Positions 5,913 to 19,596 of a DNA stretch of 64,000 nt are shown here, piece by piece (the stretch's first letter is position 1; every line of letters begins with the position of its first letter). The notes beneath the pieces were generated by a model that was given only the letters and a program-made list of their open reading frames with translations, ran no database searches and had not been told where the DNA came from. A program made the position numbers and the translations under genes. Origin of the DNA: Nitrospira sp. (GTDB lineage: Bacteria > Nitrospirota > Nitrospiria > Nitrospirales > Nitrospiraceae); assembly GCA_029194535.1 (NCBI GenBank), contig JARFXR010000001.1:310001-374000 (forward strand), written 5' to 3'.

Positions 5913-8900
5913 CTACGACATCGACTCGATTCGACTCCAGCCCCCCGTGGGGCGATACCGATACCATACCGCATCTTCGGGATCGAGCGCGACGAGATGG
6001 ACCCATTCATTGTGGTAGAAGTGCTGCAGCACCTCGTGCCGTCCGATCAGTTTGTCGATGCGCCCGCGCGGCGCCTCGACGATGGTCAGCAGCCGCATCG
6101 GCTCGTGGTAGGGCAGGTCGCCGTTCATGACGGTCTGCCGCGCGAGCCCCAAACGAAGATCGCTCCAGGGTCCCGACATGATCCCCAGTCGCCCGACGAC
6201 ATTGTGGTAGATCTTACTCGCGCTCCCGTAGACCTCGTTGTCGGTGGTGGAAAAATAATGCTCCATGTTGATCCACTGGGCCACGACCTGCGGCGCGGTC
6301 AGGAGCACCTCCAGCAGGCGATTGGACGGATCTTCCCGATAGTCGTAGGAATGGAGGAACACCCGGCCCTCGAGATCGAGACCCTTGGTCAACTCCCGGC
6401 GACCGAAGATGATCGCCGTGTTACCTGAGAGCCCCCATTCCGGGCGGACCTGACTCCAGTCGGCGCTGCGTCTGCGCACGTGGGCGACCGCCTGCTGTCC
6501 CGTCGGGGGCGGCTCGAGGTCGGGAAGCCGCGCGCAGCGTTCTTGGCTCGTCAGTTCGGCCGCCTCCTGAAGGTCTTCCTGCAGCCGGGCCAGATCGGCA
6601 CGGTGGGTCGGCGGCACGTCTTCCAGGTCGAACAGCGTGACATGGTCGGTCGTGGTATCCATCTGGCCGGCCACGAAATGGGTGTCGGCCGGGATGTCGA
6701 GGCCGTTTTTGGCCAGGCGTTCCCGCACCGTCCGATTGTTCGCCATCATGGCCAAAACCCGCGCGTTGGGGTTGCCTTCATTGCCGCCGCAGGCTCCGCA
6801 ATCGAGCGCGGATTCATAGGGATTGTTGTCGGACGTGCTGCCGTGCGCGCAAAACAGCACCAGCCGAGCGAAGTTCCGAGTCAGGCCCATCATCCGCAAG
6901 GCTGTATCCACCGTCAGGACCTGTTCATCCGTCGTGAACCCGGTGCGCGTGATCCGTTCCCGTTGATGGGAGGCGGAGCGCGCGCTGATGCCGTACTGCC
7001 GCTGCAGAAGCCCGACGAGCCGGTCGAGCGTGTCCGCCGTGAGTCCCGACTGCGTGGCTGCGTCCAGGAGGAGCGGATCGGCTTCTCCCGCGCCGCTCAG
7101 CGCCCGCTGACGAAGGCCCTCGACGAGCCCGGGCGTGATCCGGGATTTGCGCAGACCCGTATGTTCTTCGAGCGCCGCCCTGATCCTGGCTTGCTGCTGC
7201 GCCGCCAGCATCTCGGCGGTTTCGTCTGGGGCCATCTTGCCGACCGTGAGCGTCGTCGCGATGGACGGGACGAACAGCCGCCGTAGCCAGGATGTCCATC
7301 GACGGTAGAGCGACGGCCACAAGGTCTTGCCGAAGATGGGAATCGCATAGACCCATCCCAACGATTCCACCATGACGTAGGGCGTGACCACGTTTTCTTT
7401 GAGATCGTGGAGGAGCGTGTGGCCGGCATGGACCCATTTCGTCCGGGCTTCATGAGTGGAGACCTTGTGATCGAGGTAGCTGCGTGGAATCTCACGCACC
7501 TCGTTCTTGGCGCGCATGATGACGGGAAACTGTTCCGTGTCGTGTTCTTTTCCCCAGGCCCTGAACCGGATGAAGGCGGCGAAGAAGCCGGCGAAGCCAT
7601 AGGTGTCGTGCGCGCCGGTCGATTCCAAGTGCCGGCGGAACGGTTCCGATCGCACGTCGATGCAGTAGACCGACTGTGAGTAGGGTCGACTGATCGTAGG
7701 GGCTCGCGTCGCCCCCTCCGCCGGCTTCACCGGCGGAGCCTCCCCCTCACGCGCGTTGCGCGCGAGTCTTCCGATCAGCGTGTCCTGATAGCCCGCCTCA
7801 AAGGCCTTGAGCCAAACCGGCCCATGAGCGGACTCCGGAAAGGCCTCAATCCATTGCACGAGCTGTTTCAGCGTATCGGGCGGGGCGGCGACGAGCTGCT
7901 CCGGGTCGAGACCGAGCGATTGCGCGAGCGCCAGCAGCGTTCTGGCTGCGCCACGACGAGACGCCGACGCCTGTCGGGGAACCACGTCGATGTGGTAGCG
8001 ATCGAGCACCGCCTTCCATCCGTTGCCTCTCTGGTGAGCCAGACGATCGACCTCCTCCGCATACAGGGCCGGTAATCGCCCCGCGACCCGTTGCTTTCGC
8101 AAATAGTACTCTTCCGGATGGCTGCGCATGTACTCGGTTACGGCCTCGTAGCGACCGTCGATACCGAGTTCGGCGCGGCAGGCTTTCTGGACGAGCTCGC
8201 GCGCGTACCAGAGGCGGATGGCCAGGAACTTCACGAGCCCGGCCGGATACGCCTGTTGCCAAGGATAATCTCGTTCTTCGCCGCGCCACTTGATGAACCC
8301 GGCCCAGCCGGGCAGGGCGGTCAATTGCAATGACAGATAGTCTTGCCGCAGGTTGGCGGGAATGCCGAGCATGTCGAGGCTCTCGATCAGCGCATCTTCC
8401 GGGTACTCGGGCAGTTCCGCGATTTTGCGCGCGCTGTCTTCGATGCCGCAGGGTGACCATTCGTGCGCGGCAATCGTCTTCCAGGCCTGGTACAGACCCT
8501 TGTCGCGTTCCGGCATGGCCCAGGTCGCGTGTCCTTCGTCGAGAAAGGCTTCGCACCATTTGATGAGCTGGTCGTTGATCTGGCGGACGACCTGCGTACC
8601 CAACGTATCGTCGCACCAGTGCGAGAGGGTGAGCCACTGACCCAACGCGGCTTCATCGGCCTCCACGATGGCGCGTATCCGCGTCCGGAGGTCGGGATAG
8701 ATGAGCGCGGACTCAAGGCGGGTCGCGAGCCGTTCGATCGGCACATGGGAGGGATCGGGCAGCTGGCTGTCGAGAGGTTCGATGGCGGGCGATCCCAGTC
8801 CCTCGGTCAGACAGGCGCGCAGCACCTCGCGCTGCGAGACGGTGCGGGCGCCGATCGCGACACCGGTATCCTGCGCCAGCGGGCCCAAGACCTCATCCAG

Positions 8901-9116
8901 GTGTTCGGGACGGATCCGCCCCGACCGGACGTAGCGGCGATAGAGGTCGCCGGGAAGATAGCCGCTCCCGCCCATGAATTGCTTGCCGCGCCGGACCGTT
9001 TCCTCGAACGGAAGGTATTCGAGACTGTGGAGCGGATTGTGATGCACGAACGTCCGCATCGGCCAATATTGCGCGATCACCTCCCCGGCGAGGCGAACGA
9101 CCCCGCGCAATTCCAT
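5913..9116 (-). CDS. dabA: DabA, inorganic-carbon accumulating complex catalytic subunit (DUF2309)
   Basis: A 1067-residue DUF2309 protein. DabA is a carbonic-anhydrase-like zinc protein that, with a NuoL-like partner, performs energised one-way conversion of CO2 to bicarbonate at the inner face of the membrane. The expected zinc/catalytic residues are present: C485 and D487 in YCIDVRSE, H758 in CAHGS and C773 in LDCGACGG. The 15-residue gap between His and Cys agrees with what I recall for Halothiobacillus DabA, while the Cys-to-His distance is about 100 residues longer. The ATG at 9116 matches the conserved N-terminus; the frame stays open far upstream only as an overlap with the NuoM-like gene. 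It starts 29 bp after that gene's stop. Confidence 0.9.
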   Translation of the reverse strand: MELRGVVRLAGEVIAQYWPMRTFVHHNPLHSLEYLPFEETVRRGKQFMGGSGYLPGDLYRRYVRSGRIRPEHLDEVLGPLAQDTGVAIGARTVSQREVLRACLTEGLGSPAIEPLDSQLPDPSHVPIERLATRLESALIYPDLRTRIRAIVEADEAALGQWLTLSHWCDDTLGTQVVRQINDQLIKWCEAFLDEGHATWAMPERDKGLYQAWKTIAAHEWSPCGIEDSARKIAELPEYPEDALIESLDMLGIPANLRQDYLSLQLTALPGWAGFIKWRGEERDYPWQQAYPAGLVKFLAIRLWYARELVQKACRAELGIDGRYEAVTEYMRSHPEEYYLRKQRVAGRLPALYAEEVDRLAHQRGNGWKAVLDRYHIDVVPRQASASRRGAARTLLALAQSLGLDPEQLVAAPPDTLKQLVQWIEAFPESAHGPVWLKAFEAGYQDTLIGRLARNAREGEAPPVKPAEGATRAPTISRPYSQSVYCIDVRSEPFRRHLESTGAHDTYGFAGFFAAFIRFRAWGKEHDTEQFPVIMRAKNEVREIPRSYLDHKVSTHEARTKWVHAGHTLLHDLKENVVTPYVMVESLGWVYAIPIFGKTLWPSLYRRWTSWLRRLFVPSIATTLTVGKMAPDETAEMLAAQQQARIRAALEEHTGLRKSRITPGLVEGLRQRALSGAGEADPLLLDAATQSGLTADTLDRLVGLLQRQYGISARSASHQRERITRTGFTTDEQVLTVDTALRMMGLTRNFARLVLFCAHGSTSDNNPYESALDCGACGGNEGNPNARVLAMMANNRTVRERLAKNGLDIPADTHFVAGQMDTTTDHVTLFDLEDVPPTHRADLARLQEDLQEAAELTSQERCARLPDLEPPPTGQQAVAHVRRRSADWSQVRPEWGLSGNTAIIFGRRELTKGLDLEGRVFLHSYDYREDPSNRLLEVLLTAPQVVAQWINMEHYFSTTDNEVYGSASKIYHNVVGRLGIMSGPWSDLRLGLARQTVMNGDLPYHEPMRLLTIVEAPRGRIDKLIGRHEVLQHFYHNEWVHLVALDPEDAVWYRYRPTGGWSRIESMS

Positions 9117-9145
9117 CCGTCTCGATTCGATATCGGTCGCGCGCC

Positions 9146-10456
9146 CTACCGATTCCACGTGGTCAATTCTCCGATGGTGGAGGTCCCGAGCCAGGCTTGG
9201 TCGGACGCGAAGAGGGTCGAGGGTGCCAGTCCCAACGCGAGCAGGACCAGCACGATGATCAACAGCGACGCCAACTCGGCGTGAAGCAGATCGGTGTATC
9301 GCAGTTCGGGCCGCTGGACGCCGAAGAGCAGCCGTTGCACCAACTGCATGATGTACCAGGATGCAGCGAGCCATGCCAGAAGTGTGACGAACAGGCCGGC
9401 CAAGGACGGAAGCGGCGAGTTCAGCAACAGCCCCATAAATCCGGCGAACACACCGAAGGGCGGCAGGCCCATCGCGGCCAGCGCGATCAAGGACAGCAAG
9501 ACCGCATAGTGCGGCATGCCGCTCGCCAGGCCGCTGATCGCCTGTGGATCCACGTCGTCGCCGTATCTGGTGCGGACGACCTGCCAGCCGATCATGAGCC
9601 CGCTGGTCGCCAGGCCCACCGCCCCGACCAGGAGCGCGGCCCGGGGCGTCGTCGTTCGCGAGGCTGCGGCGAACCACCAGAAGATGGAAAGGAACGAAAG
9701 ACTGCCGTAGGCCAGGAGGAGCCGGACTCGGGATTGCGCCAAGGCCTTGAGCGCCCCGTAGGAGGCGCCCACCAGGGCGAAGAGACTCACGGTCCAGGCC
9801 ACCGTGTCCGGAATCGTGGGCAGGGCAGCCGCAAGCTGGTGGAGACCGGCGACCGGGAGGAGGACGACGATGAACGAGGGGAGGCTGCCCGGCAACCGCG
9901 TCAGCGCCGTCAGGTACCCATCGTGAAAGGGTACGAGGGGAAGCAAGACCGCGCAAGCCAGTAAGGAGGCGACCGATGACAACGGCACGTCCGCAGCGAC
10001 CGACGCGGCGGCACAGAAAGCGCCGAAGCCGTAGGCGCCGATGCCCCACCAGGACCTGGGCCAGAGTGCGCTGTGGTGACGGTAGAGCAACCCCGCGATC
10101 AGAGCCAATAGGAGGGTCACGCTCAAGGGAGCGATCGGCTGTGGGCTGCTCAGGGCGGACAAGCCGAGTCCGAGACACACCAATGTCAAGATCCACGAAA
10201 GCCGGTGCTGTTCGTGAACCGGTTGGCCCAAGATCGAAATCGTGGCGGCGAGCGGCAACAGGTAGAGCGGCAACAATCCCTCGGGGGGCGCATCGATCAG
10301 CCCGGCGCATCCCGCGACTGAGGCGAGGCTCACCACGGCCCAGGCGACGGAGGACTGTTTCAACCGTTCCGACTCCGAGCGGAAGGGCAGACAGGCGAGC
10401 GCCCCCAGCAACGGGAGGCCGGCCAGCAGCCACGGTATCAGCGCGCCGCCTGTCAT
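9146..10456 (-). CDS. NuoM/MrpD-like membrane subunit of the DAB-like complex
   Basis: A 436-residue, very hydrophobic protein with about 12-14 membrane spans, shorter and more diverged than the two NuoL-like proteins upstream. Motifs such as LLPLVPFHDGYLTAL and LIALAAMGLPPFGVFAGF recall the proton-translocating subunits of complex I and Mrp antiporters. The ATG at 10456 overlaps the stop of the upstream NuoL-like gene by four bases (ATGA), so translation is coupled. DAB complexes are normally described with a single NuoL-like DabB, so this is an extra antiporter-like subunit whose job (ion path or assembly) is inferred only from the operon. Confidence 0.75.
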   Translation of the reverse strand: MTGGALIPWLLAGLPLLGALACLPFRSESERLKQSSVAWAVVSLASVAGCAGLIDAPPEGLLPLYLLPLAATISILGQPVHEQHRLSWILTLVCLGLGLSALSSPQPIAPLSVTLLLALIAGLLYRHHSALWPRSWWGIGAYGFGAFCAAASVAADVPLSSVASLLACAVLLPLVPFHDGYLTALTRLPGSLPSFIVVLLPVAGLHQLAAALPTIPDTVAWTVSLFALVGASYGALKALAQSRVRLLLAYGSLSFLSIFWWFAAASRTTTPRAALLVGAVGLATSGLMIGWQVVRTRYGDDVDPQAISGLASGMPHYAVLLSLIALAAMGLPPFGVFAGFMGLLLNSPLPSLAGLFVTLLAWLAASWYIMQLVQRLLFGVQRPELRYTDLLHAELASLLIIVLVLLALGLAPSTLFASDQAWLGTSTIGELTTWNR

Positions 10457-12153
10457 CGCGACCAGCCCCCCTCCCGTTTGTCGACCTGATGAACCAGGCG
10501 CATGATGGTCTGCCCGATCAGCGCGTAGCATTCGTCGGCGTAGAGCCGGTTCATGAAGGGCAGGTAGAGGCGTACCCGCAAATCCTCGACCCATGCCGGC
10601 ATCCGCAGCGTCATTCCATGGGCGCTCATATAGAGGTACGCCCAACTGGCGACGGTGAGAATCGTGGCCGTTACAATGATGAGGTCGAACAACCAGTCGG
10701 GGAGATCGGCGGCTCTGAAGTACGAGGCCGCTTCATCGGGATTCGGGTACAGAAATTCCGTGAACGACTCGACGGCGAACAGATAGACGAACACGACGAA
10801 CAACAGGGTCAGCAGCATGGCGGCCGAGACTTTCCAGGACGCCACCTGGCGCAGCCGCGTCAGCGTCAGGATGGCCTGGGACGAGGTGATCCAGATAAAG
10901 AACAGAAAAATCACCGTCCCTTGCGATTCCAGCAGGGGGATGCGCAGGACCCCATGCGTAACCAATAAAATGAGCAGCGGGATGAACAGCGTGGTCACGG
11001 CTCCGGTGAACCACGTGAGGCGGGACAAACCCGGTTCCTCTGCCTGATGATCGACGTGCGGGAAATGCGGTTCCTGCCTGGCCTTGTGGATGACATTGCC
11101 GCAATTGAGGAACACGGTCGCCTTGAACAGGCCGTGGGCGATCAAATGGAAGACGGCGAGCGAAAAGGCGCCCAGGCCGCATTCCATGATCATGTACCCC
11201 ATCTGGCCGATCGTCGAGAACCCGAGCGTCTTCTTGATGTCGTTCTGCGCCAGCATCATCGTCGCGCCGAGTACGGCGGTCAACGTGCCGATGAGAAAGG
11301 CGACGTGCAGGGTCGTGGAGCTGAGCCCGAACAACGGCGCGAGCCGGTTGATCAGAAAGCCGCCGGCGTTGATGATGCCCGCGTGGAGCAACGCGTGTAC
11401 CGGCGTCGGCGCGAACAGCGACCCCGGCAGCCACAGATGGATCGGAAACTGAGCCGATTTTCCCATCGCCCCGACGAAGAGGAGCAGCGTGACGGCCGTG
11501 GCGCCGCTCATGTCCATGCCGGGCCACAACGACAAGATGACCGGCATATCGGCGGCTCGCGCGAAGAGCTCCTGGAATTCGAGCGTGCCGTACAATTGAT
11601 GGGCGAGTGCGATTCCTGCAAGAAATGCCGTATCGGCCACGCGCAGGAGCGTGAAGGTCTTGAAGGCTCCCGCCAGCGTCCCCGCATGGGCGTGATTGTG
11701 GGCGAGCACGTAGAGCAGGTAGCTGAGCACCTGCCAGAAGAGAAACAGCATCATGAGATTGGCGCTCGACACCATGCAGATGAGGACGAAATCCGTGAGG
11801 CAGATCATGGCCAGATACCGACGGGCGTGCCGATCCTGGTACATGTAGGCCGTCGAGTAGCGGTAAATGATGACGCTGACCCCGGTGATCAGCGTCATCA
11901 TCACTGCGCTCAGCCTGTCGACGTAGAATCCGATGGGGATCGCAAAGGAGGCGATCGAGGATAGATCGTAGAACCGGATCGAGACGGGCCCGCCGGTCGT
12001 CACGAGATACAGCGTCGCCACGGCGCCAAGGAAGGCGGCCCCGATGGGATAGGCGGCCAGCTTCGCCCGCGCATGTTCGGAGCCGCCCCGTCCGAATACG
12101 ACGATACCGGCGGCTGCGAGGAGGAGAAGCGGTACCAGCAAGACGAGCGTCAC
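10453..12153 (-). CDS. dabB: NuoL-like DabB subunit, copy 2
   Basis: A 566-residue polytopic protein of the NuoL/MrpA antiporter family. Landmarks are FWQVLSYLLYVLAHNHAHAG, the ion-channel segment GAMGKSAQFPIHLWLPGSL with its lysine, HALLHAGIINAGGFLINRL and MMLAQNDIKKTLGFSTIGQM. In DAB systems this subunit carries the cation flux that drives DabA. It starts with GTG at 12153, about 20 bases after a promoter-like box pair at 12177-12204. It is a paralogue of the gene upstream, sharing stretches that are identical at the DNA level. The next gene overlaps its stop by four bases. Confidence 0.85.
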   Translation of the reverse strand: MTLVLLVPLLLLAAAGIVVFGRGGSEHARAKLAAYPIGAAFLGAVATLYLVTTGGPVSIRFYDLSSIASFAIPIGFYVDRLSAVMMTLITGVSVIIYRYSTAYMYQDRHARRYLAMICLTDFVLICMVSSANLMMLFLFWQVLSYLLYVLAHNHAHAGTLAGAFKTFTLLRVADTAFLAGIALAHQLYGTLEFQELFARAADMPVILSLWPGMDMSGATAVTLLLFVGAMGKSAQFPIHLWLPGSLFAPTPVHALLHAGIINAGGFLINRLAPLFGLSSTTLHVAFLIGTLTAVLGATMMLAQNDIKKTLGFSTIGQMGYMIMECGLGAFSLAVFHLIAHGLFKATVFLNCGNVIHKARQEPHFPHVDHQAEEPGLSRLTWFTGAVTTLFIPLLILLVTHGVLRIPLLESQGTVIFLFFIWITSSQAILTLTRLRQVASWKVSAAMLLTLLFVVFVYLFAVESFTEFLYPNPDEAASYFRAADLPDWLFDLIIVTATILTVASWAYLYMSAHGMTLRMPAWVEDLRVRLYLPFMNRLYADECYALIGQTIMRLVHQVDKREGGWSR

Positions 12154-12210: not shown

Positions 12211-13929
12211 TCAGGACGTCCGTCCCTGCGCCAGCTCTTCGACTCGCCGGATGGCGGCCAACCGGGCTTGGCCCAGGCGCCGGACGCTTTCGTCGATGTG
12301 GAGCCGATTCAGGAAGAAGACGTAGAGCCGGAGGCGGATGCCGTGGATCCAGGCCGGCATCGGGAACGATCGGCCGTGAGCCTTGAGATAGACGTAGCAC
12401 CAGCCGAGGACGGTCATGAGCGTCGCCGCGCCGATCATCATGTCGAACATCCGGCTCGGCAGCTCCGCCGCCTTGAAGTAGGACGCGACGTCCTCCGGGT
12501 TGGGATACAAGAACGCCGTGAACGACTCGACGGCGAACAGATAGACGAACACGACGAACAACAGGGTCAGCAGCATGGCGGCCGAGACTTTCCACGACGC
12601 GACGGCCCGCAGGCGCGTGAGGGTCAAGATGGCCTGCGAGGACGTGATCCAAATGAAAAACAGAAAAATCACGGTGCCCTGCGCTTCGAGGAGGGGAATG
12701 TGCAACGCCCCGTGCGTCAGCAACAGAATCAGCAGCGGGATCAGCAGCGTCGTGACGAATCCGGTCACCCAGGTCAGGCGCGAGTAGTGTTCCTCATCCG
12801 TCTCCGGCTCGAGATGAGGGACATGCGGCTCCAGCCGAGCCTTGCCGATGACGTTGCCGCAATTGAGGAAGACGGTCGCCTTGAACAGGCCGTGGGCGAT
12901 CAAATGGAAGACGGCGAGCGAGAAGGCGCCCAGGCCGCATTCCATGATCATATAGCCCATCTGCCCGATCGTCGAGAACCCGAGCATGTTCTTGATGTCA
13001 TTCTGCGCCAGCATCATCGTCGCGCCGAGCACGGCGGTCAGCGTGCCGATGAGAAAGGCGATGTGCAGGGTCGTGGAGCTGAGCCCGAACAACGGGGCGA
13101 GCCGGTTGATCAGAAAGCCCCCGGCGTTGATGATGCCCGCGTGCAGGAGCGCCGTCACCGGCGTCGGCGCGTACAGATACCGCGGAAGCCAGATGTGGAA
13201 GGGAAATTGCGCCGACTTGCTCATGGCGCCGATCAGCAAGAGCAGCGTGACCACCGTGGCCCCGCTGCACTCGATGCCAGGTAGCGGCGCGATCGTGACC
13301 TGCGACTGAACGGCGGCGGCAAACAGCTCGGGGAACTCCAGGGTGCCATACCACATATAGGCCAGGGCCGTCCCGGCGAGAAAGGCGACGTCCCCGATCC
13401 GCAGCAACGTGAAGGTTCGGAAGGCGCTCTCCAGCGTCGCGGCGTGTGTGTGATTGTGAATGAGGAGATAGAGCAGATACGAGAGAAGCTGCCAGAAGAC
13501 AAACAGCATGATGAGGTTGGCGCTGGACACCATGCAGAGCAATACGCAGACGGCGACACCGAGCAGCGCGAAGTAGCGGCGTTCGTGCGGCTCCCGACTC
13601 ATGTACTGGATGGAATAGGCATAGATGATCGTGCCGATGCCCGAAATGAGCACCATCATGACCGCGCTGAGGCGATCCACGTAGAAGCCGAGCGGCAGAG
13701 GGAACGACCCGGTCAGGGCGGGATCATAGAAGCGGATCGAGACCGGCCCTTGCGTGGCGACGACATAGAGGGTTGCCACGGCGCCGGCGCAGGCGACGCC
13801 GATCGGCCACAGGGCGATGTTGATGCGGGCACGCAAGGCCGCTTCCCCGCCGGCCACCACGATGAGCGTGGTCAGCAGCGGCAGCAGCAGGACGAGCAGC
13901 ACGGCGAGCAGCACGGCGAACGTCCACAT
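12211..13929 (-). CDS. dabB: NuoL-like DabB subunit, copy 1 (first gene of the operon)
   Basis: A 572-residue NuoL/MrpA-family membrane protein, opening MWTFAVLLAVLLVLLLPLLT. It contains FWQLLSYLLYLLIHNHTHAA, the lysine-bearing GAMSKSAQFPFHIWLPRYLY, TALLHAGIINAGGFLINRL and AQNDIKNMLGFSTIGQMGYM. It is highly similar to copy 2 through the central region and diverges at both ends. The ATG at 13929 is preferred; an in-frame TTG at 13950 is possible. It is preceded by a roughly 200-nt leader holding a terminator-like hairpin and a promoter-like box pair. Role: membrane ion-coupling subunit for DabA, by family and context. Confidence 0.85.
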   Translation of the reverse strand: MWTFAVLLAVLLVLLLPLLTTLIVVAGGEAALRARINIALWPIGVACAGAVATLYVVATQGPVSIRFYDPALTGSFPLPLGFYVDRLSAVMMVLISGIGTIIYAYSIQYMSREPHERRYFALLGVAVCVLLCMVSSANLIMLFVFWQLLSYLLYLLIHNHTHAATLESAFRTFTLLRIGDVAFLAGTALAYMWYGTLEFPELFAAAVQSQVTIAPLPGIECSGATVVTLLLLIGAMSKSAQFPFHIWLPRYLYAPTPVTALLHAGIINAGGFLINRLAPLFGLSSTTLHIAFLIGTLTAVLGATMMLAQNDIKNMLGFSTIGQMGYMIMECGLGAFSLAVFHLIAHGLFKATVFLNCGNVIGKARLEPHVPHLEPETDEEHYSRLTWVTGFVTTLLIPLLILLLTHGALHIPLLEAQGTVIFLFFIWITSSQAILTLTRLRAVASWKVSAAMLLTLLFVVFVYLFAVESFTAFLYPNPEDVASYFKAAELPSRMFDMMIGAATLMTVLGWCYVYLKAHGRSFPMPAWIHGIRLRLYVFFLNRLHIDESVRRLGQARLAAIRRVEELAQGRTS

Positions 13930-13940
13930 TCCACACCCGT

Positions 13941-13998
13941 AAAAAGACAAAAAGCCAACCGGGTGTCTCGACGTTCCGGTCGAGCCCCGCGGTTGGCT
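13941..13998 (-). terminator. Terminator-like hairpin in the leader of the DAB-like operon (possible attenuator)
   Basis: On the minus strand AGCCAACCG (13998-13990) pairs with CGGTTGGCT (13961-13953), with an inner CTCGAC/GTCGAG stem, and is followed by TTTTTGTCTTTTT ending at 13941. That is the form of an intrinsic terminator, yet it lies only about 11 bases before the first start codon, and the nearest gene upstream is divergent. It is therefore better read as a transcription attenuator than as the end of another transcript. Confidence 0.6.
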
Positions 13999-14131
13999 TG
14001 CACTGCGACCGGCCGTCCAATCGAACTGCCGGCCGCCCTACGGCCCCTGACGGCCGACCGTGACATCCTGCTCGTCTGCGACACGAAATTCGGGACGAGC
14101 AACACTGCCGGCCGACCGATCGTGGTCCATC

Positions 14132-14159
14132 ATTAATACGGGGTCCTGATCAGCGTCAA
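14132..14159 (-). promoter_or_regulatory. Promoter-like box pair of the DAB-like operon
   Basis: On the minus strand TTGACG (14159-14154) and TATTAAT (14138-14132) are separated by 15 bp. This would start a transcript near 14125 with a leader of about 195 nt. The leader (13930-14125) also contains a 7-bp hairpin GCTCGTC/GACGAGC at 14070-14100 and three GGCCGGCAGT-like repeats. The pair is matched before NuoL-like copy 2. Confidence 0.5.
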
Positions 14160-14319
14160 GCAGGAATCGCGGCATGAGTCCACTCAACAACCGTCCGATG
14201 GTCCGAAAGACCTATCAACCACCGGCGCGGCCGGACTGCTTGTTCGAGCCACCGCGCAACTCTATAATCACGAGGACACGTGCGGGAGCGGACGGAGCCT
14301 CAGCGCCGGCAGTCGCATC

Positions 14320-14664
14320 ATGGAAAACGCCATACGCAACGCCATCATCAAATTCGAACAGGAGTTCATGGGACGCGGCCCCGACGACGTGCGGGCGTTC
14401 ATCGTGCGCGATCTCGTGGTGGTGCGGTTGAAAGGCGTGCTGACGCCCGCCGAGCGTCAACTGGCCAAGACACCCGAAGGGGTGGAGATGGTCAAGCGAC
14501 TGCGCCAGACCTTGATCGCCCAAGGACGCGACAAACTCTGCGAACAGGTCAGCGACATCACGGGCGCGAAGATCTTGGGCCTCTTTACCGACATCGACGT
14601 CCAGCTGGGGGAGCGCGTCTTCGTCTTCACTGTCGATCGGGACATCCAGCCCGTCGGCCGCTAG
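14320..14664 (+). CDS. DUF2294 family protein
   Basis: A 114-residue soluble protein opening MENAIRNAIIKFEQEFMGRG, with RAFIVRDLVVVRLKGVLTP in the middle and GLFTDIDVQLGERVFVFTVD near the end, the pattern of DUF2294. No biochemical role is established to my knowledge. It diverges from the DAB-like operon across a 390-bp intergenic region and precedes selO by 77 bp. Divergent placement allows shared control, but nothing in the sequence proves it. Confidence 0.75.
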   Translation: MENAIRNAIIKFEQEFMGRGPDDVRAFIVRDLVVVRLKGVLTPAERQLAKTPEGVEMVKRLRQTLIAQGRDKLCEQVSDITGAKILGLFTDIDVQLGERVFVFTVDRDIQPVGR

Positions 14665-14741: not shown

Positions 14742-16217
14742 ATGGCCGGTCGGACCCTTGAAACGCTCCGTTTCGACAACAGCTATGCCCGCCTGCCGGA
14801 TGCCTTCTTCGCCAGGCTCAACCCGACGCCGTTCAGCTCTCCCCCGCGGTTGATCCACGCCAATCCTGCCGCCGCCGCCCTGATCGACCTGGATCCGGCT
14901 CAGTTTGCTCGCCCGGAATTCGCGGGAACCTTCGGCGGAAGCTTGCTGGCACCCGGCATGGAACCGTTGGCCATGCTCTACTCGGGTCACCAGTTCGGCG
15001 TCTATGTGCCTCAGCTGGGCGACGGGCGGGCCATCCTGTTGGGCGAAGCCGTCAACGAGCGGGGCGAGACATGGGAGCTACACCTCAAGGGAGCGGGGAT
15101 GACGCCGTTTTCTCGGGACGGCGACGGGCGGGCGGTGCTGCGGTCGACGATCCGCGAGTATTTGTGCAGCGAAGCCATGCACGGTCTGGGCATCCCGACG
15201 ACGCGAGCGCTTTGCATCGTCGGCAGCGAGGACAAGGTCTATCGCGAACAGATCGAAACCGGGGCGATGCTGGTCCGGATGGCGCCGACGCACGTGCGCT
15301 TCGGCACCTTCGAGATTTTCTACTACCGCAAACAGCATGAGCGGCTGAGAATCCTGGCCGACTACGTGATCGACCGGCATTTCCCGCACCTCCGCGAAGC
15401 TGCCGACCGATATGCCCGATTTTTCGCCGAGGTCGTCGAGCGGACAGCCACGCTCATCGCGCAGTGGCAGGCCGTCGGTTGGGCCCACGGCGTGATGAAC
15501 ACGGACAACATGTCGATCCTTGGCCTCACCCTCGACTACGGACCGTTCGGCTTCATGGACGACTACGACGCCTCGTTCATCTGCAATCACTCCGACCACA
15601 ACGGACGCTATGCCTTCAACCAACAGCCGTACATCGGACTATGGAATCTCAGCTGCCTCGCGCAGACGTTACTGCCGCTGGCGCCGAAGGAGGCCTTGAA
15701 GGAGGCGTTGGACCGCTATACCCCGATCTTTGAGTCGGAGTTCCGGACGCGAATGCGCCTGAAGTTGGGATTGCGGGAAGCACGAAGCGGTGACGACGAC
15801 CTGATCGACGAGTTCCTCGGCATGCTGCAGGAGAGCCATGCGGATTACACGCGTGTGTTTCGAGAGATCGGCAGTTTCGACAGCGCACCCGGCGCGGTCA
15901 ACGAGCTCCTACGCGACTACTTTCTCAATCGTGATCGCTTCGCGGCCTGGGCGGTGCGGTACCGAGAGCGGCTGCAGGACGAGGGAAGCGCCGACGACGA
16001 CCGGCGCGAACGGATGAACCGGATCAATCCCAAGTACGTGCTGCGGAATTATCTCGCGCAGACGGCGATCGAGAAGGCGCAGCACCAGGACTTCACCGAG
16101 ATCGAGCGATTGTTCGATGTGCTGCAGGATCCCTACCGCGAACGAGCCGGAACGGACGCCTATGCCGCCTCGCCGCCCAATTGGGGCAAGCACGTGACGG
16201 TCAGTTGTTCGTCGTGA
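14742..16217 (+). CDS. selO: SelO/YdiU pseudokinase-fold protein AMPylase
   Basis: A 491-residue SelO/YdiU protein. This family has a kinase fold with inverted ATP binding and transfers AMP to protein hydroxyls, linked to redox stress. Family landmarks are LYSGHQFGVYVPQLGDGRA, LKGAGMTPFSRDGDGRAVLR, REYLCSEAMHGLGIPTTRA, GWAHGVMNTDNMSILG (catalytic and metal region) and GPFGFMDDYD. The last residues are SCSS, with cysteine at the third-from-last position, where animal SelO has selenocysteine. The length is normal for bacterial YdiU. The start ATG lacks a strong ribosome site but matches the family N-terminus. Confidence 0.93.
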   Translation: MAGRTLETLRFDNSYARLPDAFFARLNPTPFSSPPRLIHANPAAAALIDLDPAQFARPEFAGTFGGSLLAPGMEPLAMLYSGHQFGVYVPQLGDGRAILLGEAVNERGETWELHLKGAGMTPFSRDGDGRAVLRSTIREYLCSEAMHGLGIPTTRALCIVGSEDKVYREQIETGAMLVRMAPTHVRFGTFEIFYYRKQHERLRILADYVIDRHFPHLREAADRYARFFAEVVERTATLIAQWQAVGWAHGVMNTDNMSILGLTLDYGPFGFMDDYDASFICNHSDHNGRYAFNQQPYIGLWNLSCLAQTLLPLAPKEALKEALDRYTPIFESEFRTRMRLKLGLREARSGDDDLIDEFLGMLQESHADYTRVFREIGSFDSAPGAVNELLRDYFLNRDRFAAWAVRYRERLQDEGSADDDRRERMNRINPKYVLRNYLAQTAIEKAQHQDFTEIERLFDVLQDPYRERAGTDAYAASPPNWGKHVTVSCSS

Positions 16218-16365: not shown

Positions 16366-19300
16366 GTGGCCAAGACGCGCAGTGACTCGAAGCTGGCAGT
16401 GGCGGGAGCGCTGACGCTCGCGCTGGCCATCGCCGGGGTGCTTCTGGTCAAGGAGCCGTTGCGCAGCTCGCGACCGGCCGGATCCGCGCTCGAGCTGAAG
16501 CCGGGGTCGAGCGAGCAGATCGTTCGGGCGCGTCTGTGGGAGGATCCGGTTGCGGCGGTGGAGCGGGCCATCCGACGGTCAGGATCCAAGCCGTCGTCCG
16601 GCGCGGAAGCCTCGCTGGCCCGCCGGCTCATGCCGCTGCGCAAGGCCCTCGCCGAGCGGGTGGAGAACGGGCAACGGGTGACGGTGCTGCTGGTCACGAC
16701 CAGCGGCGGGCCCTACGTCGACAACATCGAATCCCGCATTCGCGACCGCTATGCCGTCGGCACCGCGCTTGGAGTGGGGTGCTATGCCCCGGAGGGCGAA
16801 GGGTACCTCTCCTTCGTCGATTGGGAACCGGGCGGCGCGATGCCCGGACTTCCGTACGAATGGTACCGGCTCAGGAAGACGCGGGTCTGCGGGGCGGACG
16901 AGGCGCGCGCCGACAGCGTGCTCGTGGTCTGGTTTGCCGATGAAGCGTTGCGGCGGGGATTTCTCGCGACCTTGACCTCTTTTTCGCAGGCGTTGGTCTG
17001 TGAGGACTCCGCGCAAGGCGAGTGCTTGCTGACTCAACAATCCCCCAAACTGGTTCGGATTCGTCTCGCGCTGCAACGGGCGGTGACCGTCAAGATCATG
17101 GGGCCGCGCAGCTCGTCCGCCTTCCGCGCCATCCTGGACGAAGTCGGTCAATTATATGGGCGGCCGCACGACGGGGTAGGGGTCTGGCCGAACGCCGACG
17201 GCACCGTCGAACTCTACTCGCCATGGGCGAGCGCGATGAGAGGATTGCTGGCGTACGGACTCAAGACGGAATCCGGACGGGGAGCGGCCTGCAGGACCTA
17301 TGAGGATTGCGAGCACGAATTCCACCGCCGGCTGGCCGACGCCAACATCCGGTTGGTCTATGAAATCGGATCCGACGATCTGCTCTTCGAAGGACTGATC
17401 GCCGAACTGGAACGGCGGCAGGTGAAGTTGGGATGGGATGCCGTCATCCTCATCGGGGAGTGGGATTCTTTTTACGGCAGGGCCCTTCCGATCGAGTTCC
17501 GCGCCGCCGCCTGCGTCAAGGTGGCCGCGCTTCCTGAGCAGCAACTCAAAGAGATTCTCGTTCCGGTCGAGATCAAGACGCGCTGTCCCACGGTCCCTCG
17601 CGCCGTCGATCTCCAGGTTCAACGCCCGGCCGACTATGAAGATCTCCGGCTCAACGTGTTTCGCTACAGTTACCTCAGCGGTCTGGACGGAGAAGTGCCG
17701 GGCGACGATGCGGCCCGCGCCGCTCGGGCGGCGCGGGCGAGCGCCGATCCATCGAAAGACTCGGTCGGGGATCGACCCGAAGGAACGAGCCAGCTCGATT
17801 ACGTGCGAGCGCTGACCGCGCGGATTTACGAGGAAGGAGAAGGAGCGAGGGCGATCGGGATCCTCGGTACGGATCCCTACGACGCGCTGCTGATCATCAA
17901 GGCGCTCCGGCCGTCGTTTCCCCACGCGATTTTCTTCACCGTCGATCTGGACGGGCGGCACCTCCACCCCAGCGAATACCGATCGACCCGCAACCTGGTC
18001 GTGGCTTCGCCGTTCGGGCTGCAGCTGGAAGGTGGCCTGCAGCGCGACGTGCCGCCGTTTCGCAGCAGCTACCAGACCGCCACCTATTTTGCCGCCCTGC
18101 AGGCGGTGGGACACGTCGTCTGTCTACCGAGGGGGCAGCCGCAACCGCCCGGCCGCTGTACCTCCTCATATCATGTGTCTTTGACGCCGGAAGACCGCCG
18201 GTATGATCCGGGTGTTCACCCTCGTCTCTTTGAAGTGGGACGGAACGGCGCCGTGGATTTGAGCGTCGTCGAGAAAGAACGGGTTCGGACCGTCCATCCG
18301 CTACGGGGCGATCTGGCCTCTACCGACGATCTCGGTCAGCTCAAGCAGGGGATCGGGTTCAACGACACGGCGGTGGCGGTGTCTGGCATCGTGGGCCTGT
18401 TGATCATGACCATCGTCGCCTGGAGTAATCAGCGGATCTGGAGTTGGGCGTCGGAAAAGCCCCGGCAGGTCGGCGCGTTGGCTCTGCTGGTGTTGGCCTC
18501 CTTCTTGGCGTTTGTGGCGCTGGGCGGCGCTCCTGCGCTCCTGTCCGGGCATGACGAAGGAGAGCCGTTCTCCTGGACGGACGGCGTGAGCATCTGGCCG
18601 AGCGAACTGCTGCGGCTCCTGGTGGTCGTCGTGAGCATGGTGTTTCTGGCGAAGGGTGCGCGCGACCTCGGGCACAACAGCGACCGGCTCGACCGGCGAT
18701 TCCGATTCCGGGACGACCAAGGACAACGAGGTCTCACGATCGGATCATTCTGGACGAACCTGCAGCGCGTCTACCATCCGTCCGCGACCAGAATCCCGGC
18801 CACCATGGATCAAACCTGGTCCTGGTATCGCGAAGCCGGGAGGCCGGCACAGCGAACCGCGCGGGCGCTCCTCCTGTTCCTACTCTATCTGGCGGTCATG
18901 TGGCCGCTGAAGCGATGGGTGCTCGACGAGGAAATGATTCACCCCTGTCGGGGAACGCTGAGCTGCGCGGTGGATTCGCTCATGGCGCTGGGCACGGCGG
19001 CCGTCGTCGTCCTCTTGAACCTCGCGGTGTTCGACGCCGTCATGCTGTGCCGGCGATGGATCGGCTGGGTGACGACCTCGACCGGCGGCTGGTCCGACCA
19101 GGTGCAGGACGAATATCTCCGCGACTACGGTCTCGACGAGGCACACAAAACCGAGTTCCAGAAGCTGAAATATCTGGCCGTGATCGATCTGATCGGCCTG
19201 AGAACCGAGGCCGTGAACCGCATCATCCGCTACCCCTTCATCGCCCTGCTCATCATGATCGCCGCCCGCAACGACTACTTCGACATTTGGAACTATCCCA

Positions 19301-19596
19301 AACTGTTGCTGCTCATGTGGTCGGTGAACATCCTGCTCGCGCTGATGGGCGCCTACCTGCTCTATCAGGCGGCGAACAACGCGAAAGCCGCCATGCTGGC
19401 CAAGTTGAGCCGACAGATGGTGCAGACGCTGGGGGTCGGAAAGGATCATGAGGTCCGGACGAAGCAAATCCAACACATCATCGGCGAGGTGGAAGCCAAC
19501 GAGCAGGGGGCCTTCGTGCCGCTGTACCAGCAGCCGGTGATCGAATCTTCGCTCTACGGCCTCATCGCACTGCTCCAATATCTATATGTCCGCTAG
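16366..19596 (+). CDS. Unrecognised 1076-residue multispan membrane protein with a large periplasmic region
   Basis: I cannot assign this family. One N-terminal span (residues 10-28) precedes about 630 residues likely to face the periplasm. The blocks VTVLLVTTSGGPYVDN, AVTVKIMGPRSSSAFRAIL and WDAVILIGEWDSFY look like alternating strands and helices of a periplasmic-binding-protein-like fold. A conserved-looking block spans residues 512-570 (IKALRPSFPHAIFFTVDLDG, then RNLVVASPFGLQLEGGLQ, then PPFRSSYQTATYF). The C-terminal third has about seven spans (668-686, 703-725, 748-763, 832-849, 870-893, 955-969, 978-1000). The GTG at 16366 follows GGGGAGG. A ligand-sensing membrane protein is possible but unproved. 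Confidence 0.7.
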   Translation: MAKTRSDSKLAVAGALTLALAIAGVLLVKEPLRSSRPAGSALELKPGSSEQIVRARLWEDPVAAVERAIRRSGSKPSSGAEASLARRLMPLRKALAERVENGQRVTVLLVTTSGGPYVDNIESRIRDRYAVGTALGVGCYAPEGEGYLSFVDWEPGGAMPGLPYEWYRLRKTRVCGADEARADSVLVVWFADEALRRGFLATLTSFSQALVCEDSAQGECLLTQQSPKLVRIRLALQRAVTVKIMGPRSSSAFRAILDEVGQLYGRPHDGVGVWPNADGTVELYSPWASAMRGLLAYGLKTESGRGAACRTYEDCEHEFHRRLADANIRLVYEIGSDDLLFEGLIAELERRQVKLGWDAVILIGEWDSFYGRALPIEFRAAACVKVAALPEQQLKEILVPVEIKTRCPTVPRAVDLQVQRPADYEDLRLNVFRYSYLSGLDGEVPGDDAARAARAARASADPSKDSVGDRPEGTSQLDYVRALTARIYEEGEGARAIGILGTDPYDALLIIKALRPSFPHAIFFTVDLDGRHLHPSEYRSTRNLVVASPFGLQLEGGLQRDVPPFRSSYQTATYFAALQAVGHVVCLPRGQPQPPGRCTSSYHVSLTPEDRRYDPGVHPRLFEVGRNGAVDLSVVEKERVRTVHPLRGDLASTDDLGQLKQGIGFNDTAVAVSGIVGLLIMTIVAWSNQRIWSWASEKPRQVGALALLVLASFLAFVALGGAPALLSGHDEGEPFSWTDGVSIWPSELLRLLVVVVSMVFLAKGARDLGHNSDRLDRRFRFRDDQGQRGLTIGSFWTNLQRVYHPSATRIPATMDQTWSWYREAGRPAQRTARALLLFLLYLAVMWPLKRWVLDEEMIHPCRGTLSCAVDSLMALGTAAVVVLLNLAVFDAVMLCRRWIGWVTTSTGGWSDQVQDEYLRDYGLDEAHKTEFQKLKYLAVIDLIGLRTEAVNRIIRYPFIALLIMIAARNDYFDIWNYPKLLLLMWSVNILLALMGAYLLYQAANNAKAAMLAKLSRQMVQTLGVGKDHEVRTKQIQHIIGEVEANEQGAFVPLYQQPVIESSLYGLIALLQYLYVR

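Follow-up and report, generated by a model that had tools for sequence, protein, structure and literature searches.

A conserved leader RNA upstream of inorganic-carbon uptake genes in the Nitrospirales is a candidate transcriptional attenuator

Introduction

Among the closest described systems are leader RNAs that respond to proteins or to an ion. LicT/BglG proteins act on RAT hairpins, which overlap a terminator and are kept closed by the bound protein, and the sites of ANTAR proteins need two hexaloops. In the Na+ riboswitch (DUF1646 motif), the aptamer stem and the terminator arm share bases; it is a predicted ON switch and precedes ion-transport genes (PMC9337991).

Here, we analyzed the leader of a dab operon in a window of 64,000 nucleotides from the genome of a Nitrospira species. 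The Nitrospirales are among the most abundant nitrifiers, but there appears to be no description of how they regulate the uptake of inorganic carbon. For Ca. Nitrospira alkalitolerans, in which Mrp genes adjoin a bicA-like gene, an uptake of bicarbonate driven by Na+ was proposed (PMC7784846). A first-pass annotation, made from the sequence alone, had interpreted the leader as a conditional terminator or riboregulator, perhaps sensing a carbon-status signal.

Results

The annotation had described a promoter-like box pair, a leader of about 195 nt with an internal 7-bp hairpin, and a two-part hairpin followed by a U-rich run that ends about 11 bases before an ATG. All of these elements were found on the minus strand (Table 1). 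The leader comprises about 197 nt, and the box pair is kept in relatives. A transcription start near 14126 is inferred; transcript data are not available. The predicted folding energy of the leader was -103 kcal/mol versus -83.3 kcal/mol for dinucleotide shuffles (z -4.24, 0/200), and that of the terminator hairpin was -29.3 kcal/mol. A generic promoter/terminator scanner flagged neither the promoter boxes nor the terminator, because its limits rule out a branched loop and a 15-nt spacer. The annotation had also stressed repeated GGCCGGCAGT motifs. The sequence does occur twice, but it is not conserved, and the emphasis was unwarranted: the first copy varies in relatives and the second lies within a variable part of P3. 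The repeats were thus rejected as binding sites and are incidental.

Table 1. Positions of the leader elements and the surrounding genes in the window
Feature	Position	Strand	Remarks
Promoter-like pair	TTGACG 14159-14154; TATTAA 14138-14133	-	Spacer 15 nt; from sequence, without transcript data
GGCCGGCAGT repeat, two copies	14113-14104; 14034-14025	-	
5' domain	14066..14112	-	Hairpin of two stems, P1 and P2, with a small internal loop between them; includes the 7-bp hairpin
7-bp hairpin in the 5' domain	GCTCGTC 14100-14094; GACGAGC 14076-14070	-	
P3 core hairpin	13995..14045	-	Putative sensor/antiterminator; near-invariant motifs, covariation, GGC/GCC complementarity
Predicted intrinsic terminator	13941..13999	-	Stem of 10 bp, 7 pairs of which show two-sided changes
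Terminator arms	AAGCCAACCG 13999-13990; CGGTTGGCTT (= CGGUUGGCUU) 13961-13952	-	
Inner hairpin of the terminator	13984-13967	-	CTCGAC/GTCGAG
U-rich run (T-run)	13953-13941	-	dabB ATG 11 bases further, at 13929
dabB	12211..13929	-	First controlled gene; DabB-type proton-channel subunit, PF00361/PF00662
Second DabB-type subunit	10453..12153	-	Same operon
DabA open frame	5913..10433	-	PF10070, E about 1e-262; domain starts near 9092
MpsC gene	14320..14664	+	Divergent, upstream of the leader; PF10057
SelO	14742-16217	+	Upstream

The order of the genes after the leader is dabB-dabB-dabA, and with DabA (PF10070) and a DabB-type proton channel it qualifies as a DAB operon. The DabA frame encodes 1506 aa, including about 440 extra N-terminal residues without a domain. 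It is overlapped by a frame of 499 aa (9146-10645, minus strand) that matches the proton-channel family PF00361. Probably, the true DabA start is near 9.1 kb and is preceded by a third channel-type gene.

It had been claimed that no upstream gene on the minus strand needs a terminator. Indeed, MpsC and SelO are both located on the plus strand and are divergent, which leaves no transcript from upstream that the terminator could end, and this function was ruled out. A bidirectional terminator was also rejected, because the plus-strand reading runs into GCACTG and not into T. Further upstream, an open frame of 1076 aa (16366-19596, plus strand) had no Pfam match. A divergent MpsC gene was found beside 67 of the 73 DabB copies for which enough upstream DNA was available. 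Since MpsC adjoins the leader divergently in most relatives, its pairing with DAB is conserved throughout the order Nitrospirales.

Next, conservation of the leader was analyzed at 78 Nitrospira-type loci, which were fetched by a DabB protein search. Directly before the dab gene, nearly all of the loci contained the block GGC(C/G)GUAGGG(U/C)..ACCGG...GGCCGGUCGCAGUACAAGCCAACCG...CGGUUGGCUUUU. In the core alignment of 51 chosen homologous leaders, 21 of the 125 columns were invariant, and the features of the leader are therefore not due to chance. Within P3, GUAGGG and AGU.C..GCCA were near-invariant. A TATTA[T/A] box was present 81-107 nt (mostly 96-98) upstream of the core in 36 of 67 leaders, all 36 of which also contained TTGAC at identical spacing, whereas the box occurred in only 4 of 516 control windows. 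According to the annotation, its proposal would be refuted if the hairpin were missing from the leaders of relatives. This was not the case, and a terminator was predicted in all 82 copies.

The 82 copies were also used to quantify pairing in P3 and the terminator. Overall, 95.6% of the cells were paired, and 15 of the 21 pairs exhibited two-sided changes; all 500 shuffles and all shifts stayed below the pairing value. It should be noted that the alignment (A4) had been fitted to the structure of the model and favors it, and part of the margin is therefore expected. For the terminator stem, 95.9% of the cells were paired, and the T-run was present in the copies. It thus has the properties of an intrinsic terminator, i.e. 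a conserved, G+C-rich hairpin with a U-run directly after it. The 5' domain is variable between families, and its sequence is poorly conserved outside family f1. Within f1, 78.6% of the cells were paired (shifted controls 41-49%), with two-sided changes in 14 of 15 pairs (shuffle mean 10.7). The domain is thus real in this family, but it was rejected as a family-wide aptamer because it could not be aligned across families.

P3 is composed of GGC-C-GUA-GG-(GCGGCCGGC...GCCGGUCGC)-AG-UGC-AA-GCC. The two sides of its internal loop GG/AG are nearly invariant (76/82 and 77/82). The P3 loop varies across the aligned leaders, and no fixed hexaloop is apparent in the second hairpin from this alignment. 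The invariant GG/AG loop is small and would suit a protein site, and the imperfect hairpin with small internal loops and a foot overlapping the terminator arm has a RAT-like geometry. It therefore has to be considered that an RNA-binding protein, and not a small ligand, recognizes P3 and keeps it closed, in a LicT/BglG-like antitermination. However, CAT_RBD (PF03123) was not found in the genome itself, while control genomes were positive. The sole ANTAR protein is encoded far away, and its type of site requires the two hexaloops. In the operon itself, we noticed no RNA-binding gene; an unknown protein is not excluded. We regard control by a protein as possible, but rather doubtful. The only ANTAR-domain frame of the genome has a length of 465 aa (G000:C2:176162-176317; L178).

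In 77 of 82 copies, the GCC in the 5'-arm of the terminator has its complement in a GG[C/U] that stands 0-2 nt ahead of GUA, while at the control offsets 4-8 complementarity to GCC was found at 3 of 410 positions. The GGC/GCC pair at the P3 foot was not part of the covariance model. Because the GCC strand is shared, the P3 foot and the terminator exclude each other; two mutually exclusive folds that share one strand are the hallmark of an attenuator. The contact is short and nearly invariant, and for this reason its covariation is weak and the evidence consists mainly of complementarity. In one copy preceding a SulP gene (L133), all three segments have changed together, to GGU in P3, ACC in the shared strand, and GGU in the terminator. 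When folding of the nascent RNA without the 3' arm was predicted, the median probability of the GCC-GGC pairing was 0.99, versus 0.30 in a control with the 5' 12 nt shuffled. For the complete RNA, all 82 copies were predicted to have GCC in the terminator. The terminator always wins in equilibrium folding, and switching would therefore need kinetic or ligand help.

Both folds were predicted to be stable without ligand, and no signal is known. This would also be compatible with a constitutive attenuator or an mRNA-stability element, in which the terminator would ensure a fixed low dab transcription and P3 would only tune the folding, without sensing. However, GUAGGG and AGU.C are invariant beyond the needs of pairing, and the element has been retained before four different gene types, both of which suggest recognition of something. 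We consider an element without any sensing quite unlikely.

A covariance search of homologous leaders, as the annotation had proposed, revealed a structured RNA family across the Nitrospirales. The model (R1) was used for genome searches. The genome under study contains one full copy (E 4.4e-26); the remaining matches were antisense or weak. The element was detected in 94 of 118 genomes of the sampled family and, for the order Nitrospirales, in 184 of 236 genomes, 30 of 37 genera, and three families. Extending the search to the class did not change the tally of 184, as none of the 34 added genomes from outside the order had the element at E below 1e-4. Outside the class, but within the phylum Nitrospirota, only weak matches were obtained; other phyla were not covered. 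The weak matches outside the order (L136, L137, L138, L139) were judged to be terminator-like or due to chance and not to be members, and two weak matches inside the order (L140, L123) were not regarded as convincing either. In another family of the phylum, L136 (1896-1997, minus strand) and L137 (1736-1829, plus strand) have similar terminator hairpins (AAGCCAGUC...GGCUGGCUUUUUU) before ATG codons, which are possibly distant relatives or unrelated terminators. DabA is present in 209 of the 236 genomes of the order. Many genomes have two to four DabA genes, and the element is usually present just once or twice.

A known Rfam family was ruled out as the identity of the leader: no Rfam 15 family, including T-box and DUF1646/Na+, matched at its gathering score, and the best matches had E values of 1.7-1.9, far below the cut-offs. 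Our literature search also found nothing on this leader. From the sequence comparisons, we conclude that the leader represents a genuine, undescribed family of structured RNAs in the Nitrospirales.

The first gene downstream was assigned by Pfam and tblastn for 115 distinct copies. It encoded DabB in 79 cases, MrpE in 12, DabA in 10, and SulP in 6, and thus 107 of the 115 copies directly precede inorganic-carbon genes. The remaining 8, several of which are weak matches, were either located at a contig end or followed by something different. The SulP proteins match PF00916, but the NCBIfam BicA model was matched only far below its cut-off, and bicarbonate as their substrate is therefore only inferred. 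Copies located between DabA and MrpE could also be ordinary DabA terminators. Some genomes contain three or four copies, all of which precede a DIC-related transcription unit of their own; in one of them (L122), three copies precede SulP, DabA, and MrpE in turn. A variant leader with a GUAMGGU / AAUAC core is found before SulP in L129 (15227-15333) and before DabB in L174 (4878-4984), L175 (4774-4881), and L176 (1187-1292). The visibly similar upstream sequences of these four leaders, before SulP as well as DabB, suggest that the element moves as a module. A second full copy in L043 (540-647; = L170 1513-1620) has its own divergent MpsC and precedes a 798-aa frame without a Pfam match, not a dab gene.

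The promoter-like box and the strong terminator could also belong to the gene of a small trans-acting RNA, with the terminator located before dabB by chance. However, the copies recur 0-200 nt before the start codons of several unrelated transport genes, which is expected for control in cis and not for a free sRNA, and a trans-acting RNA is highly improbable.

The identity of the downstream genes also bears on the signal. The signal is inferred to report the status of inorganic carbon or of a related ion (Na+), as DabA, DabB, SulP transporter, and Mrp antiporter genes all have this element upstream. An ion riboswitch for Na+, in place of a carbon signal, would fit the 12 copies before MrpE and the 6 before SulP, as Na+ is required by Mrp antiporters and for SulP/BicA-type symport, and the known Na+ class likewise uses an aptamer stem that excludes a terminator (PMC9337991). 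However, most copies precede DabB, which is not a Na+-dependent transporter, and the Na+ class was among the Rfam families without a match. A Na+ riboswitch thus seems unlikely.

Discussion

Computation established the structures of the leader and their conservation, showed that the two folds exclude each other, and identified the genes downstream. The earlier proposal of a conditional terminator is strongly supported by the conservation and covariation of the leader, by the mutually exclusive pairing, and by the coherence of the downstream gene set. We consider it likely that the leader acts in cis as an attenuator of transcription and is probably a riboswitch, in which a stabilized P3 blocks the terminator and the uptake genes are on.

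According to this model, RNA polymerase would start at the inferred site and synthesize the variable 5' hairpin and then the core hairpin P3. The GCC of ...UGC-AA-GCC would close the foot of P3 by pairing with the GGC beside GUA. With P3 closed, the 5'-arm of the terminator, AAGCCAACCG, would be occupied, leading to read-through and expression of dabB-dabB-dabA. With P3 open, AAGCCAACCG would pair with CGGUUGGCUU, and transcription would stop in the U-run. A signal that stabilizes P3 would thus turn the genes on, and P3 with a closed foot would be the antiterminator. Promoter activity, actual switching, the direction of control, and the ligand are inferences, made without transcript-end, expression, or ligand data.

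As a conserved structured leader before functionally related genes, the element is a riboswitch candidate, which would bind a ligand directly and without a protein; a protein sensor is not excluded. Two features count against a riboswitch: a metabolite pocket would be expected to be larger than the invariant GG/AG internal loop of P3, and conservation of the 5' domain between families is poor. The carbon-status signal suggested by the annotation is plausible, but neither a ligand nor switching has been tested. Only tentatively, we suggest that the leader could represent a novel class of riboswitches for bicarbonate/CO2 itself or for a carbon-status metabolite from the reductive TCA cycle, which would induce the entire DAB, SulP, and Mrp uptake set in nitrite-oxidizing and comammox Nitrospirales. 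If the ligand were DIC, this would be the first DIC riboswitch that we know of; the phrase "bicarbonate riboswitch" was not found in our literature search. One RNA element before DabA, DabB, SulP, and Mrp genes constitutes a candidate carbon-uptake regulon for the order, and it points to SulP and Mrp genes serving carbon uptake. The leader is directly testable in vitro.

In comparison with the DAB/Mps inorganic-carbon accumulation complexes, the controlled genes are homologues of DabA and DabB with a divergent MpsC, but we found no paper that connects dab genes with a leader RNA. Attenuators under ANTAR control (NasR/EutV type) likewise contain two hairpins followed by a terminator, and the genome encodes one ANTAR protein; in contrast, the alignment shows no fixed hexaloop in the second hairpin of the leader and there is no ANTAR gene at the locus. 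As in the BglG/LicT RAT antiterminators, the foot of a hairpin overlaps the 5'-arm of an intrinsic terminator, but the genome lacks a CAT_RBD protein and the genes are not PTS-sugar genes. From the Na+ riboswitch (DUF1646 motif), the leader differs in the absence of an Rfam match, in the DabA/DabB/SulP/Mrp genes, and in its conserved sequence, whereas the two are alike in the bases shared by stem and terminator, in being predicted ON switches, and in the ion-transport genes downstream.
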